From NCBI RefSeq assembly GCF_029872155.1, contig NZ_JARXLA010000008.1:64501-128500 (forward strand): a DNA stretch of 64,000 nucleotides. Reading direction: 5' to 3'. The notes beneath the pieces are model-generated. The model saw only the letters and a program-made list of their open reading frames with translations. It did not search any database and was not told the DNA's origin. Below, in pieces: positions 36,586 to 44,449 of the stretch; the first letter of the stretch is position 1; the number at the start of each line of letters is the position of its first letter. Made by a program: the position numbers and the translations under genes. The DNA is from Hyphomicrobium sp. D-2 (GTDB taxonomy: Bacteria > Pseudomonadota > Alphaproteobacteria > Rhizobiales > Hyphomicrobiaceae).

Positions 36586-38874
<2,289 letters not shown>

Positions 38875-38906
38875 CCTGCAAACCTGTTCGGCACCAAGAC
38901 TATGAC

Positions 38907-38937
38907 ATCGGGCGATGCTTCTCAGGCTTCGCCCGAT
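38907..38937. terminator. Perfect 8-bp hairpin between maeB and the sensor kinase
   Basis: ATCGGGCG (38907-38914) and CGCCCGAT (38930-38937) are exact complements. The right arm overlaps the last codons of the minus-strand kinase gene. It has no T-run on either side, so it is a structural marker for convergent 3' ends rather than a classical terminator. Confidence 0.45.
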
Positions 38938-40301
38938 TGCGCCGCGTGATTCATCACCGGCAAGTCGATGATGAAACGCGTGCCACCATTAGCGCGCGAA
39001 CTGCACGTGATGGTGCCGCCGATACCCTCAACGATCATGCGGCAGAACGACAGCCCAAGACCTGTTCCGACGCCAATGCGCTGCGTCGTCACATAGGGCG
39101 CGAACACGCTATCGATGATTTGCGGCGGGATGCCCAGACCGGTATCTGAGACGATGATGCTGTTGCGGTTCTCGCCGCGCTTCAGAGCGATGGTGAGATT
39201 TGGTTCAGGCGCGCGCTCATCCTCGCCTTCCAACGCGCGCTCACGAATCGCGCGCAAGCCGTTCTGCATCAGATTGAACAGCACGTGCGTCATCAACAGG
39301 TCCGACCCCTTGAAGCTGAAATCTTCTTCAAGCTCCATCCGAACGATGCCACGCTCATCCGGCCGGAAGCTGTAACGCTCAACGGCGGTGAGCACGATGG
39401 ACGACATGCGCTGGAGATCACCCGCGTCTCCATCGGAATGCGCGTCACCGGCGTTGCCAAGCATGAGGTCGATGACCGAATTGGCCGATGTCACGTGCTG
39501 CTGCATCCGCCGGATCGAACCGATAATTTTCTGACGGGCCGCTGATTCCGGTAGCCGGCTCAAAAGCCACTCGCAGCCATCGGCCTCAAGACGAATACCG
39601 GCCAGCGGCGTTCTGCATTCATGCGCGACTTGATCGGCAAGCGCAGCCGCCTCATTCTCGCGCTCAGCAACCTCCGATGCCTGCATGTGACGAAGCGCAA
39701 ACGCGGCAGCGAGCACGGCGCCATAAACCGGCAGCATCTCTAGCCAAGCAGCCGGAAGCGGCGCGCCATCCGTTACGATGAGAAACACACCCATCGCCGC
39801 CAGTACGCCGATGACAACAGCGGCAATGCCATTGGGAACATCATAAAGCTGCACGGCAACGATGAGGCTGGCTATGGCCACGACCGGCCACACAGAGCTC
39901 TCGGCATTCATCAGCAGCATGAGCGTACTGAAAAACGGCAGACAATAAAGCAGCGCCGCGTAGGACACCGCCAACACATGCCGCCGCATATCAATCGGCC
40001 AATGGTTTTTCGCTGCGATCATGACGCTCAATCCCCAGCCCATTGCAAACCAGACGCCGACAGATCGCTGAGGCAGCGGCGTCAGAGACGAGTACAGGAA
40101 GTAACCGACTGGAAACGCCATCACCCCGAAGGCCGCCGCAAGACGAAGGCTTCGCTCAGTACGCAAATAGTTGCAGCCAAAGCTATGCAGCAGTGCGCGC
40201 CCAATAGAACTTGCATGGCGCTCGACAGCGACCTTCGAACGGCGCACTGCGGCTGCACCGGCCAACGGCATTAGCGACAAACGTGCTGATAATTGAAGCA
40301 T
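38922..40301 (-). CDS. Six-helix sensor histidine kinase, CqsS/LqsS-like
   Basis: The first 210 residues hold about six membrane helices with almost no periplasmic loops. The patterns FPVGYFLYSSLTP and LPFFSTLMLLMN resemble the CqsS/LqsS family that senses alpha-hydroxyketone autoinducers. The kinase core follows: H-box ADQVAHECRTPL (His present), N-box NLMQNGLRAI, G1 DTGLGIPP and G2 GTGLGLSF. There is no receiver domain, so it should signal to a separate regulator, most simply the divergent gene at 40396. No synthase gene of the CqsA/LqsA type lies in the window. The sensor-family assignment is from memory of motifs. Confidence 0.75.
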   Translation of the reverse strand: MLQLSARLSLMPLAGAAAVRRSKVAVERHASSIGRALLHSFGCNYLRTERSLRLAAAFGVMAFPVGYFLYSSLTPLPQRSVGVWFAMGWGLSVMIAAKNHWPIDMRRHVLAVSYAALLYCLPFFSTLMLLMNAESSVWPVVAIASLIVAVQLYDVPNGIAAVVIGVLAAMGVFLIVTDGAPLPAAWLEMLPVYGAVLAAAFALRHMQASEVAERENEAAALADQVAHECRTPLAGIRLEADGCEWLLSRLPESAARQKIIGSIRRMQQHVTSANSVIDLMLGNAGDAHSDGDAGDLQRMSSIVLTAVERYSFRPDERGIVRMELEEDFSFKGSDLLMTHVLFNLMQNGLRAIRERALEGEDERAPEPNLTIALKRGENRNSIIVSDTGLGIPPQIIDSVFAPYVTTQRIGVGTGLGLSFCRMIVEGIGGTITCSSRANGGTRFIIDLPVMNHAAQSGEA

Positions 40302-40395
40302 CTAAATTTTTAGCCGAGGATGTACCAGATCCGATACGAAAGCATAGTACGAACATCTTACGGAAAGTGCTTCATTCGGTCTGGACACCTGAGCC

Positions 40396-41379
40396 ATGAC
40401 GCCATTTTTTCATTCAACATCAATTCTAGCTCTCGATGACGATCCGCTGTTTTTGGAAAGCCTGGTCTTTCAGTTCTGCGATGATATTTCGTGCCAAACT
40501 TTTTCCCGGACTGACGCAGCGCTTGAGCATTTGATTAACCAGGCGGGACAACATCCCTGCTATTCGCGCATGTATGATCTCGTCGCGCTGCCATCTGCGG
40601 GCCTACGCGCAGCCATGCGCAATCCATCCGATGCATTGCTGTGTGCTGATGTTTCCGGTTTGCGATCGATCATCGACGACCCGAGTAGGCAACTGCGCAT
40701 ATCGGTGGCCATCGTTGACTACGACATGCCGGACATGGATGGACTGGAGTTCTGCCGCGCCATCCGCGATCTGCCGGTAAAGAAAATATTGCTGACCGGC
40801 AAAGCCGGGCTGGAAGTTGCCGTCGAGGCCTTCAATGACGGGCTTATCGACTGCTTTCTGCAAAAGCAGGACCAGAACGCCAGTCAAGCGCTGCGCAACG
40901 CCATTCAAAAGCTGCAACAGCTGTATTTCAGCGACGTATCGCGCCCGATTTCAAACGCGCTTGAGCTTTGCGGCAGCACATGGTTCAGCGATCCCGCAGC
41001 GCGCGATCTGATCCAGAATACGGTCGATGATCTCGACATGGCAGAATACTGCCTTTCGACAACACCGCCGGGCGTCGTCATGCGCGACGATGCCGGCAAC
41101 GAAGCATTCATGCTGATTTCAGATCGCAGCGAGATTGACGCGCAGATCGCTGCTGCCGACGCACGCGGCGCACCGGACGAACTGATCAATCAGCTATCGA
41201 GCGGCAAATCACAATCGTGGTTTCCAACGCCTGACGGGCGCTACAGCGCCGACTATTATTCACGATGGCAGGCACATACGTGGCCCGCTGACAATCTGCA
41301 TGGCGAGAATCACTGGATGCACAGCCTGATACCTGTTGGTGGCGCATGCTTTCTGGATGACATGCGCAAAATTGCGTGA
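40396..41379 (+). CDS. Response regulator with extended receiver, LqsR-like
   Basis: The 327-residue protein begins with a receiver domain: acidic pocket LALDDDP (about 11-17), phosphoacceptor Asp108 in IVDYDMPDMDG, Thr in LLTGKAG and Lys in LQKQ. Asp108 lies about 50 residues later than usual because of an insert (about 45-100). The C-terminal half (about 170-327) has no DNA-binding motif; its EYCLSTTPPGVVMRD and WFPTPDG stretches recall an uncharacterised output domain of similar regulators. As I recall, Legionella LqsR also uses Asp108. It is divergent from the kinase across 94 bases, so they likely form a pair. Confidence 0.75.
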   Translation: MTPFFHSTSILALDDDPLFLESLVFQFCDDISCQTFSRTDAALEHLINQAGQHPCYSRMYDLVALPSAGLRAAMRNPSDALLCADVSGLRSIIDDPSRQLRISVAIVDYDMPDMDGLEFCRAIRDLPVKKILLTGKAGLEVAVEAFNDGLIDCFLQKQDQNASQALRNAIQKLQQLYFSDVSRPISNALELCGSTWFSDPAARDLIQNTVDDLDMAEYCLSTTPPGVVMRDDAGNEAFMLISDRSEIDAQIAAADARGAPDELINQLSSGKSQSWFPTPDGRYSADYYSRWQAHTWPADNLHGENHWMHSLIPVGGACFLDDMRKIA

Positions 41380-41540: not shown

Positions 41541-43421
41541 GTGGCAAGCATTTCCCGCCGCAACGCCGCCGATACTGCGAAAAAACGGCCGCATACAGAC
41601 CATTCCAACGCAGAGCCCCGGCAAATCGCGAGACTTCGCGCCAGCTTTGACGCTCAGCTCGCCGAGCTGCTGAAGCGCAACAGCGAGCTTGAACGACTGA
41701 ACTCATCCATGGAAGCCGCCATCGATCATATGGGGCGCGGGCTCTCCATGTTTGACAGCGAACAACGGCTTCTTGTGTGCAACAGGGCCTATGCCGATGT
41801 TTACATGCTGCCGCCCGAGCTTACGGCACCCGGTACGCCTTTCGTCGAAATCCTGCGCTATCACCTTAAACGCACGACCGGCGCTGACACGTCTGGAAAA
41901 GGCGCTGCGGAATGGATCCAGGATCACATTGCGCGCCTGCAGATTGAAGGCCACATCGAAGAGGTGCAGCGCCTTGCTGACGGACGCGTCATCCGTGTCA
42001 GCTATCGCCCGCTTGCCGGTGGCGGCTGGGTGGATATGCAGGAGGACATCACTGCACAACGCCGCTCTGACGAAAAGATCGAATGGCTGGCGCGCCACGA
42101 CACGCTGACGGAGATTCCGAACCGGTTTCACTTTCGCGAACACCTGACGAAGCAGTTCAGAACCTATGACACCAGCAAGGGCTTCGCGCTGCTCTGGCTC
42201 GATCTTGATCACTTCAAGGATGTCAACGACCAGCTTGGCCATCTTGTCGGTGACGGGCTCCTGAAGAGCGTTGCCGACCGCCTTCGCAGCTGCCTGCGGG
42301 CTGGCGATATAGTCGGCCGGCTTGGCGGCGACGAGTTCGCAATCCTGCAATGTGGTGCGGACCGACCCGAACTGGCCGAAGCACTGGCAAGGCGCGTGCT
42401 GGACCGCATCCGGCTGCCACATGAGGTTGCCGGACACTCGCTGTTTACGGACGTCAGCATTGGCATCGCCCTTGCCCCGATGCACGGACAGACGCCAGAG
42501 CAGCTTCTCGCCAGCGCTGATCTTGCTCTCTATCAGGCGAAGTCACGCGGCCGCGGCCTGCATGCCGTATTTTGCCAGCAGACCATGGGAACACCCGCAT
42601 CCGTGCTAAGCCCGCTACGCGCAGAGCTTGAACACGCCGTCGAGCGATCCGAACTCGTGCTGCACTATCAGCCCATAGTTGATCTGCAGAAAGGCGAGGT
42701 ATCGTGTTGCGAGGCTTTGATGCGCTGGAAGCATCCCAGTCGCGGCATGATTGCCCCTGCGGATTTCATCCCGATTGCAGAAGAAACCAAGCTGATCGTG
42801 AGCATGGGTAAATGGGCACTTCAGCAGGCATGCACCGACGCGTTGGACTGGCCAGCCTCGACAAAGGTGGCTGTGAACCTTTCAGCGGTGCAGATTGAGT
42901 GCGGCGACATATATGAGATTGTCACCGATGTGCTGATGCAGACGGGCCTGCCGCCCGAGCGGCTACAGCTTGAAATTACCGAATCCGTTCTGATGCGTGA
43001 CCGGGCGCGGACGCAGGAAGTGCTGAGCAAACTGCACGATCTCGGCGTGATGATTTCGCTCGATGACTTCGGATCCTGCTTTGCAACGCTGAGCTATCTG
43101 CGCAGCTTTCCGTTCCGCAAGATCAAGCTGGACCGAAGCTTCGTGCGCGACATCCCCCAGCATCGCGACTGCGTAACCATCGTGAAATCGGTGGCCGACC
43201 TTGCCCGCGAACTGGACATGCATTCTGTGGCTGAGGGCGTGGAGACAGCCGCGTGCCTTACGACGGTGCGCAACGCCGGATACAGCGAGGCGCAGGGCTT
43301 TTACTTCAGCCCAGCGGTACGCGCCAGCGGTGTGGAGCGCGCACTGAGACTGTGCGCGCAGCGGTTTTCGGCGGCAACAGCACCAACGGATGGCCAGCAC
43401 ATCCCAAGCATTTACGCCTAG
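41541..43421 (+). CDS. PAS-GGDEF-EAL cyclic-di-GMP enzyme
   Basis: The soluble 626-residue protein has a coiled coil (about 25-60), a PAS domain (about 55-175), GGDEF (about 180-340) and EAL (about 360-605). The cyclase site GGDEF and the inhibitory RAGD site five residues before it are intact. The phosphodiesterase residues also look intact: EAL, NLSA, EITES, DDFG, KLDRS, AEGVET and QGF. Loop 6 reads DDFGSCFATL instead of the common DDFGTGYSSL. It could be bifunctional. The start is GTG at 41541. The TAG stop merges with a CTAGAGC repeat edge. Its place after the LqsR-like gene suggests signalling to c-di-GMP. Confidence 0.92.
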   Translation: MASISRRNAADTAKKRPHTDHSNAEPRQIARLRASFDAQLAELLKRNSELERLNSSMEAAIDHMGRGLSMFDSEQRLLVCNRAYADVYMLPPELTAPGTPFVEILRYHLKRTTGADTSGKGAAEWIQDHIARLQIEGHIEEVQRLADGRVIRVSYRPLAGGGWVDMQEDITAQRRSDEKIEWLARHDTLTEIPNRFHFREHLTKQFRTYDTSKGFALLWLDLDHFKDVNDQLGHLVGDGLLKSVADRLRSCLRAGDIVGRLGGDEFAILQCGADRPELAEALARRVLDRIRLPHEVAGHSLFTDVSIGIALAPMHGQTPEQLLASADLALYQAKSRGRGLHAVFCQQTMGTPASVLSPLRAELEHAVERSELVLHYQPIVDLQKGEVSCCEALMRWKHPSRGMIAPADFIPIAEETKLIVSMGKWALQQACTDALDWPASTKVAVNLSAVQIECGDIYEIVTDVLMQTGLPPERLQLEITESVLMRDRARTQEVLSKLHDLGVMISLDDFGSCFATLSYLRSFPFRKIKLDRSFVRDIPQHRDCVTIVKSVADLARELDMHSVAEGVETAACLTTVRNAGYSEAQGFYFSPAVRASGVERALRLCAQRFSAATAPTDGQHIPSIYA

Positions 43422-43480: not shown

Positions 43481-44449
43481 TCAAGCGTCGACGGACACCC
43501 TGCTCTTGACCTCGGTCGGCGCCCCGAAATGCTCGAAATAACGCGGATCGATTTTCTCAACGGGGAGAATGATCAGCACGTCGGTTGTGCCGAACTGACG
43601 GTCAACAACGGCGCCATCGCCGACGAATGCACCGAGGCGCAGATAACCCTTTACGAGCGGCGGCAACGCCTTCAGCGCGGCCTTAGCGTCGATCTGGTCG
43701 GCAGGCAGCCGGTTCATGGGAACGTGCAAATGCGGATGCGCTGCACAGCGCCATTCAGCCGGGGCCAGCGCGTTCTGATGCAGGAAGCTGAGCGCCATGG
43801 CGTGCTGGTCGGGATCGGTGCCCGGCAGACTTGCGCAACCGATCATCACATCGACCTTATGCTCGCGCACATACGTCCACAGGCCATGCCAGAGCAGTTC
43901 AACCGTGCGCTTGTTGCGATAGGGCTCCAGCACGCATGAACGGCCGAGCTCCATAAAGCGATGATGTGGCCGGGCGGCAATCAGCGGCGCGATGTCGTAT
44001 TCGCTTTGCGTGTAGAAGCCCAGCGTGCGCTCCGCCACCTCCTGACGCAGCACGCGATAGGTGCCGACGACCTTCTGCCGGCGAACACTGCCCCATGCCT
44101 CATTAGCAATCGGCAGGTTACCATCAACCACCAGCAGGTGATCGCAGACGGCATCGTAGGGATCCTGATCCCGGCGCGTCATCTCGGCCCGCTTGGTGGG
44201 GATGGCGGACATCTCTTCATAGAAAACGCTGTAGCGCAGACGCTGCGCCAGCTTGATGTCGCGCCAGCGACGCGTGAGCTTGACCTCAAGATTGCCGATC
44301 TTGCCGTAGACCTTGTCCTGCTTGCGCAGGCGGAACGGCGTAGCGCTGGCGCCGTTCAGCGTATGCAGAGCCAAAAGACCACCGGGAACCGCTTGCAGTC
44401 GGGGGCTACGTGCCAGCCGGCTGGCCATCCGCCGCGCCGTATCCTTCAT
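43481..44449 (-). CDS. olsB: L-ornithine N-alpha-acyltransferase OlsB
   Basis: OlsB transfers a 3-hydroxyacyl chain to ornithine, the first step of ornithine-lipid synthesis, which replaces phospholipids under phosphate limitation. The 322 residues show the GNAT-like family pattern: RYSVFYEEM, MTRRDQDPYDAVCDHLLV, FMELGRSCV and GCASLPGTDP. The ATG at 44449 is preceded by GGAGAG. OlsA is not adjacent; the PlsC-type gene at 19934-20848 is the only candidate here. Related proteins were once annotated as hemolysins. Confidence 0.85.
   Translation of the reverse strand: MKDTARRMASRLARSPRLQAVPGGLLALHTLNGASATPFRLRKQDKVYGKIGNLEVKLTRRWRDIKLAQRLRYSVFYEEMSAIPTKRAEMTRRDQDPYDAVCDHLLVVDGNLPIANEAWGSVRRQKVVGTYRVLRQEVAERTLGFYTQSEYDIAPLIAARPHHRFMELGRSCVLEPYRNKRTVELLWHGLWTYVREHKVDVMIGCASLPGTDPDQHAMALSFLHQNALAPAEWRCAAHPHLHVPMNRLPADQIDAKAALKALPPLVKGYLRLGAFVGDGAVVDRQFGTTDVLIILPVEKIDPRYFEHFGAPTEVKSRVSVDA

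Follow-up and report, generated by a model that had tools for sequence, protein, structure and literature searches.

Several signalling systems related to the one considered here have been described. In Legionella the Lqs genes follow the order lqsA-lqsR-hdeD-lqsS, in Vibrio the synthase CqsA is accompanied by the sensor kinase CqsS, and PMC10653808 reports lqs clusters for Alpha-, Beta-, and Gammaproteobacteria and LqsR-family regulators for 310 genomes, 16 of them alphaproteobacterial. The same source describes Ralstonia PhcX, an LqsR-family regulator that outlived lqsA, and the R. solanacearum complex, where the Lqs kinases are gone too and the regulator lies beside phc genes. The subject here is a divergent pair of genes, encoding a CqsS/LqsS-family histidine kinase and an LqsR-family response regulator, in a 64,000-nucleotide stretch of the Hyphomicrobium sp. 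D-2 genome (contig NZ_JARXLA010000008.1, positions 64,501 to 128,500 of the forward strand), which as a whole is called the window; the original prediction, made from the letters alone, had correctly taken the host for an alphaproteobacterium. The PhcX state is a precedent for that of the window, where, in contrast to the R. solanacearum complex, the pair stays in place.

The window regulator resembles that of Legionella over nearly its whole length, Asp108 included, and the kinase, judged by its family membership, would be of the same kind as LqsS; however, LqsA is missing and the kinase and regulator genes are divergent. With Vibrio the window shares a membrane domain homologous to CqsS and catalytic motifs identical in kind, while it has neither a synthase nor an attached receiver, the CqsS membrane invariants are altered, and an LqsR gene adjoins. 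The cqsA-kinase-lqsR locus of four other Hyphomicrobium genomes has the genomic place, the divergent pair, and the promoter core in common with the window but includes cqsA and the genes of a polyhydroxybutyrate (PHB) depolymerase and a glutathione S-transferase (GST), and its kinases keep all 13 membrane invariants. According to these sequence comparisons the window pair is probably (at about 0.62) the receiving half of a CqsA/LqsA-type quorum-sensing module for alpha-hydroxyketones, one that lost its synthase in the ancestor shared by the window species and H. sulfonivorans S1 and the input of which has since changed. The two predicted divergent open reading frames, kinase and regulator, were confirmed with 94 bp between them:

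38922-40301, minus strand: non-hybrid membrane histidine kinase of the CqsS/LqsS family (459 aa), with the membrane domain at about residues 45-210 and the catalytic core, including His227, at 211-459
39672-40169, minus strand: membrane domain of the kinase (residues 45-210), altered at seven positions that are otherwise invariant in the family
40396-41379, plus strand: LqsR-family response regulator, 327 aa, with phosphoacceptor Asp108 and an LqsR-type C-terminal output domain
40302-40395: shared intergenic promoter/operator region, 94 bp between the divergent kinase and regulator genes
40322-40370: 49-bp promoter core, in which 39 of the 49 aligned positions are identical across six Hyphomicrobium genomes

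As judged from profile searches, the kinase belongs to the CqsS/LqsS family. HATPase_c was found above the Pfam cut-off and HisKA slightly below it, with no Pfam match in the N-terminal half; the best 25 of 83 NCBIfam matches all start at residue 198 or beyond, and the 42 sequences found in the PDB cover the kinase half only, leaving the membrane half, by sequence, without a relative of solved structure. Taken alone, the membrane domain matched a hidden Markov model (HMM) built from 75 relatives outside Hyphomicrobium, Vibrio CqsS among them, with an E-value of 6.4e-24, which substantiates the CqsS/LqsS-like character claimed earlier, and an HMM built from two Vibrio CqsS only with 3.2e-9. The catalytic motifs are intact (15/15 core invariants kept). 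In the AlphaFold2 model (mean predicted local distance difference test score, pLDDT, 82.5; predicted template modelling score 0.59; 36 aligned sequences) helices span residues 15-73, 79-96, 103-131, 137-152, 155-176, and 184-248, and if 50-73 and 184-205 are taken as the membrane-embedded portions of the two outermost of these, the N-terminal half appears to hold six membrane helices joined by short loops, in agreement with the six-helix sensor nearly free of periplasmic loops that had been proposed. One of the motifs that had been likened to CqsS/LqsS, FPVGYFLYSSLTP, is instead a place where the kinase has lost the family consensus (P..YY..W....PQ.YE).

The regulator is assigned on the same kind of evidence to the LqsR family. 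Legionella LqsR (6sy9) was its best phmmer match in the PDB (E 3.5e-30 over residues 2-310; next chain 3.4e-6) and also the top PDB match of its predicted fold (mean pLDDT 80.7; E 3.6e-20; next 3.1e-6). The unusually late phosphoacceptor that had been noticed follows from the Pfam receiver match, which is confined to residues 98-159, and is the LqsR-type Asp108: D108 and the acidic pair D14 and D15 close to the N-terminus are present and are invariant in 73/73 others, and PMC5289986 gives Asp108, the same number, as the phosphoacceptor of Legionella LqsR.

The missing synthase, claimed for the window only, was corroborated genome-wide with the NCBIfam profile NF005526 (alpha-hydroxyketone-type autoinducer synthase, cut-off 428 bits) in a search of 18 genomes; the genus was sampled with eight Hyphomicrobium genomes, one per species. 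No CqsA above the cut-off was found in the whole window genome (completeness 99.99%, best score 172.5 bits) or in its sister H. sulfonivorans S1 (91% identity, best score 172.7 bits). The three matches of the window genome are the 5-aminolevulinate synthase HemA (TIGR01821, 659 bits against a cut-off of 339) and two BioF/Kbl-like enzymes that score below the BioF and Kbl model cut-offs. Above the cut-off the profile was found in 4 of the 18 genomes, all congeners (G002, Hyphomicrobium sp. NDB2Meth4, or G006, and the metagenome-assembled genomes SB8, or G005, and BWSM_147, or G003), each time directly adjoining the kinase. The idea of a system without a synthase holds and gains the addition that congeners carry cqsA at the very same locus. 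The synthase of NDB2Meth4 reaches 458.8 bits; in the PDB it finds V. cholerae CqsA (3hqt) with an E-value of 5.2e-79. In G023, from another family of the same order, a gene between LqsR and kinase reaches 403 bits, below the cut-off. Two further Hyphomicrobium genomes (G004, G007) have neither kinase nor regulator, and the closest match to the GGDEF/EAL protein in them reaches no more than 48-49%. Of 289 sampled Alphaproteobacteria, 6 carry a synthase above the cut-off; the window genome is not one of them.

In the window, the place that the synthase has in congeners lies among the following elements:

36586-38874, plus strand: malic enzyme/phosphate acetyltransferase, left flank, kept in all six genomes
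38875-38921: 47-bp junction, the position of PHB depolymerase-GST-cqsA (3.7-3.9 kb) in four congeners
41541-43421, plus strand: PAS-GGDEF-EAL protein, right flank, kept in all six genomes

In the four synthase-bearing congeners the gene order is malic enzyme (+), PHB depolymerase (-), GST (+), cqsA (+), kinase (-), lqsR (+), and GGDEF/EAL (+), with the block gene families assigned on NDB2Meth4 only. Malic enzyme and kinase genes are spaced by 47 bp in the window and 41 bp in S1, both flanks being syntenic with the congeners. The block depolymerase and GST are also absent from the window genome and S1, so that the whole three-gene block is absent and not cqsA alone; the depolymerase and GST paralogues that remain there are only 49% and 44% identical, and such paralogues exist additionally in both congeners checked (G002, G006). 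In quick, unrooted trees with long branches the six Hyphomicrobium LqsR sequences group together (Shimodaira-Hasegawa-like approximate likelihood-ratio support 98), the window pair and the congeners being sisters, next to cqsA-bearing Aerophototrophica (80) and within a wider group (95) of cqsA-bearing Magnetovibrio, G023, and G011, the last without CqsA above the cut-off; the Hyphomicrobium CqsA enzymes cluster with the same alphaproteobacteria (99), and the kinase tree unites the six Hyphomicrobium (98) with weakly supported deeper forks. The simplest account of the missing block is joint inheritance followed by loss in the common ancestor of the window species and S1. A separate gain of cqsA by the congeners was considered and set low, the LqsR and CqsA trees, unrooted as they are, fitting joint alphaproteobacterial inheritance.

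The second part of the favoured reading, the changed input, concerns the membrane domain. In an alignment of 81 kinases (window, S1, and 79 others, 76 with adjoining cqsA and 3 from contig-end loci; L118, L127, and L129 were left out with best kinase scores of at most 330 bits) 13 membrane-domain columns are invariant in 79/79 reference kinases, Vibrio CqsS included: P64, W70, P75, Q76, E79, R84, P122, F125, N132, W138, S141, G165, and F195. Seven of them are altered in the window kinase (W70Y, Q76L, E79R, R84W, F125S, S141V, F195A), where Y78Q also affects a column conserved in 77/79 relatives; the changes in S1 are the same except that it has K79 and T125, and P64A is added to them. None of the 15 catalytic-part invariants is altered in the window pair. 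When each of 76 groups was left out in turn, the window pair was the most extreme (membrane 7/13, core 0/15), the Vibrio group came third (1/14 and 1/16), and the remaining 73 groups had no altered membrane invariant, with G023 altered at 2/17 core positions. Fisher's test gave p 0.0014, which is descriptive only because alignment columns and rows are non-independent. Relative-rate counts (22 comparisons, from 11 outgroups each paired with 2 of the 4 congeners) placed more membrane-domain changes on the window side in 22/22 comparisons, 12 of them with p < 0.05. In the regulator 2/22 invariants differ, one of them in the window only, and its receiver is not accelerated in the window lineage. 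According to these sequence data the change centres on the sensing part of the kinase, with some general loosening in addition. In the model, residues 70-84 fall at helices 1/2, 125 at helix 3, 138-141 at helix 4, and 195 at helix 6, presumably on the periplasmic side, and the altered ones may read the ligand. Reportedly, W104, S107, F160, and F162 were described by Ng et al. in 2010 as specificity residues of V. cholerae CqsS, and W104, S107, and F162 are reported to contact the ligand. By position (V. campbellii numbering minus 5) they would presumably correspond to W138, S141V, Y193, and F195A in the window kinase.

Several observations weigh against this reading, beginning with the quality of the trees mentioned above. 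Next to the window pair in the leave-one-group-out comparison stands Cupriavidus EM10, which has the synthase (membrane 2/15, core 2/17 altered). The kinase core also has more window-side changes in 19/22 comparisons (7 with p < 0.05), and the regulator output domain shows a slight window-side excess, by raw count, in 7/8 comparisons, so general loosening may account for some of the change. The window kinase retains P122, N132, W138, and G165. The F175 of V. harveyi CqsS that sets tail-length preference (PMC3285556) equals V. campbellii F175 and aligns with window L203, outside the 13 columns, and C170/F175 is the sole CqsS specificity site documented in the PMC papers cited here. Synthase-less pairs elsewhere fit the idea of a membrane signature only in part: in six distant alphaproteobacterial genomes without CqsA above the cut-off eight kinases lie beside LqsR with the signature partly missing, S141 and F125 being absent in 7/8 each, R84 kept in 7/8, and F195 kept in 2/8. 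These eight are not independent cases, as the five placed in the kinase tree form a single clade. Two L118 reading frames failed to align as kinase members and were excluded from the count. In Polaromonas a plasmid-borne pair retains the larger part of the membrane signature, with T at 141; the contig-end loci L122, L126, and L172 also retain it but provide no independent test, being already among the 79 reference kinases.

Selection on the pair was estimated from the ratio of nonsynonymous to synonymous divergence (dN/dS) between the window and S1, with dS of about 0.44. The kinase gives 0.111, with 0.159 in its membrane domain and 0.060 in its core; the regulator gives 0.092, with 0.064 in its receiver and 0.136 in its output domain; and the flanking malic enzyme and GGDEF/EAL genes give 0.033 and 0.047. 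These values indicate that kinase and regulator are under purifying selection. The promoter core is kept despite an identity of only about 50% between the proteins of the window and those of the congeners, and a 29-bp motif inside it occurs exactly once per genome in six genomes (at most 3 mismatches). As a marker of a regulon this motif was rejected, its occurrence in the six genomes being limited to the kinase/regulator locus.

In the mechanism that would follow from the favoured reading, the kinase still autophosphorylates at His227, phosphate is exchanged between His227 and Asp108 of the regulator, and the regulator's output domain, of the LqsR type, works together with the adjacent GGDEF-EAL protein or with other targets. 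The input would no longer be a self-made hydroxyketone recognised in the fashion of CqsS; the kinase may have been retuned to another cue, perhaps lipophilic or membrane-borne, or have become ligand-independent. The PAS-GGDEF-EAL protein is a possible output partner of the regulator through cyclic diguanylate (c-di-GMP).

The original prediction had supposed that the bacterium listens to an alpha-hydroxyketone or another signal made elsewhere. The hydroxyketone part of it is weakened by the alteration of 7/13 membrane invariants, which makes a changed input likelier than unchanged ligand recognition; the part about another signal stands as a possibility. That the kinase senses the hydroxyketone of other species with a somewhat shifted specificity is accordingly held unlikely, even though the pair is maintained at dN/dS of about 0.1, six of the 13 invariants are retained, the complete module is present in congeners and in Betaproteobacteria such as Variovorax sp. 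JS1663, and H. sulfonivorans WDL6 is described in a consortium with Variovorax and Comamonas. The documented Vibrio chain-length switch C170/F175 (PMC3285556), lying outside the 13 columns, speaks against it as well. The loss of membrane invariants alongside a retained catalytic core and promoter core would also suit a kinase whose sensing disappeared with the synthase and which now works constitutively or as a switch controlled by expression from the conserved promoter; the membrane-domain dN/dS of 0.159, far under 1, points to selection beyond that on a mere anchor and renders this explanation improbable.

A decaying relic of quorum sensing is much harder to defend: the synthase is gone and the kinase tree gives the window pair a long stem branch of 1.05 changes per column, but both frames are intact in two species at the above divergence with all core invariants kept, and the low dN/dS together with the conserved promoter core argues against it. 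Hardly credible is a synthase located elsewhere or belonging to another family. The assembly is in 9 contigs, with a small gap possible, an enzyme of another family would escape the CqsA profile, and identities were assigned to three of the 17 PF00155 matches, those that the CqsA model finds as well; against this stand the completeness of the genome and the background scores of the CqsA profile in both the window genome and S1.

The genus offers a natural experiment in which one locus occurs both with the signal synthase and without it, and the strongest alteration of the membrane domain where the synthase is gone is a pointer to residues that possibly read the signal. It is possible, at somewhat less than even odds, that a CqsS-type receptor freed by the loss of its synthase has acquired a new ligand and become a retuned orphan quorum receptor. 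If this is true, W70, Q76, Y78, E79, R84, F125, S141, and F195 may mark hydroxyketone receptors, and the synthase-less LqsS/LqsR pairs of Alphaproteobacteria would be a sensor family for other cues; a receptor without a synthase need not imply eavesdropping. A limited literature search on CqsA quorum sensing in Hyphomicrobium gave only Vibrio methanethiol and adenylate cyclase work, and in a similarly limited search no account of a synthase deletion coupled to receptor change was found.

The usual linkage of the synthase was estimated by a scan of genome contigs, which gave 397 pattern matches and 178 confirmed LqsR loci; the figures refer to the best 80 of the 178. In-house HMMs were used, with a CqsA cut-off of 250 bits (background enzymes up to 205 bits), and as they were trained with Hyphomicrobium included, the Hyphomicrobium members score high by construction. 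CqsA was found at 73 of the 80 loci, a kinase above 300 bits at 76, and both at 72. The seven loci without CqsA are S1, L122, L126, and L172, where in the last three the contigs stop soon after lqsR, and L118, L183, and L186, which have no kinase above 300 bits. One of the 73, in Methylophilales LSUCC0135 (L154:9033-10002), has cqsA over two overlapping frames with a full kinase and LqsR adjoining, possibly owing to synthase decay or to a sequencing error.

Some additional observations were made in the same genomes. Three alphaproteobacterial genomes of 1.3-2.6 Mb, G279 (L072, L075), G114 (L074, L077), and G243 (L073, L076), contain 7, 5, and 2 LqsR-like matches, the weakest of which are partly receiver-only, and have no CqsA above the cut-off. 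An LqsS/LqsR-like pair of Polaromonas sp. JS666 (L111:3995-6356) is carried by a conjugative plasmid near the BREX genes brxC, DUF1788, and DUF1819. The alphaproteobacteria G310 (L213, G310:C86) and G030 have two CqsA matches apiece, those of G310 lying within 5 kb and one of them inside a 1207-aa open frame, perhaps a fusion. In the six CqsA-bearing genomes of the alphaproteobacterial sample LqsR matches are of receiver range only in two and none is listed in four. The conjugative megaplasmid pTM3 of Tistrella mobilis encodes a CqsA homologue of 46% identity (L109:7752-9149), in the 8-kb flanks of which blastp (E 1e-3) gave no match to the kinase or LqsR queries. At the window locus no RNA family exceeded its gathering score, and 1 promoter-like and 4 terminator-like sites were counted, compared with 1.9 and 2.8 in shuffled sequence. 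An Acetyltransf_5 gene of the Gcn5-related N-acetyltransferase (GNAT) type (43484-44449, minus strand) is found near the locus in all six pair-bearing Hyphomicrobium genomes.

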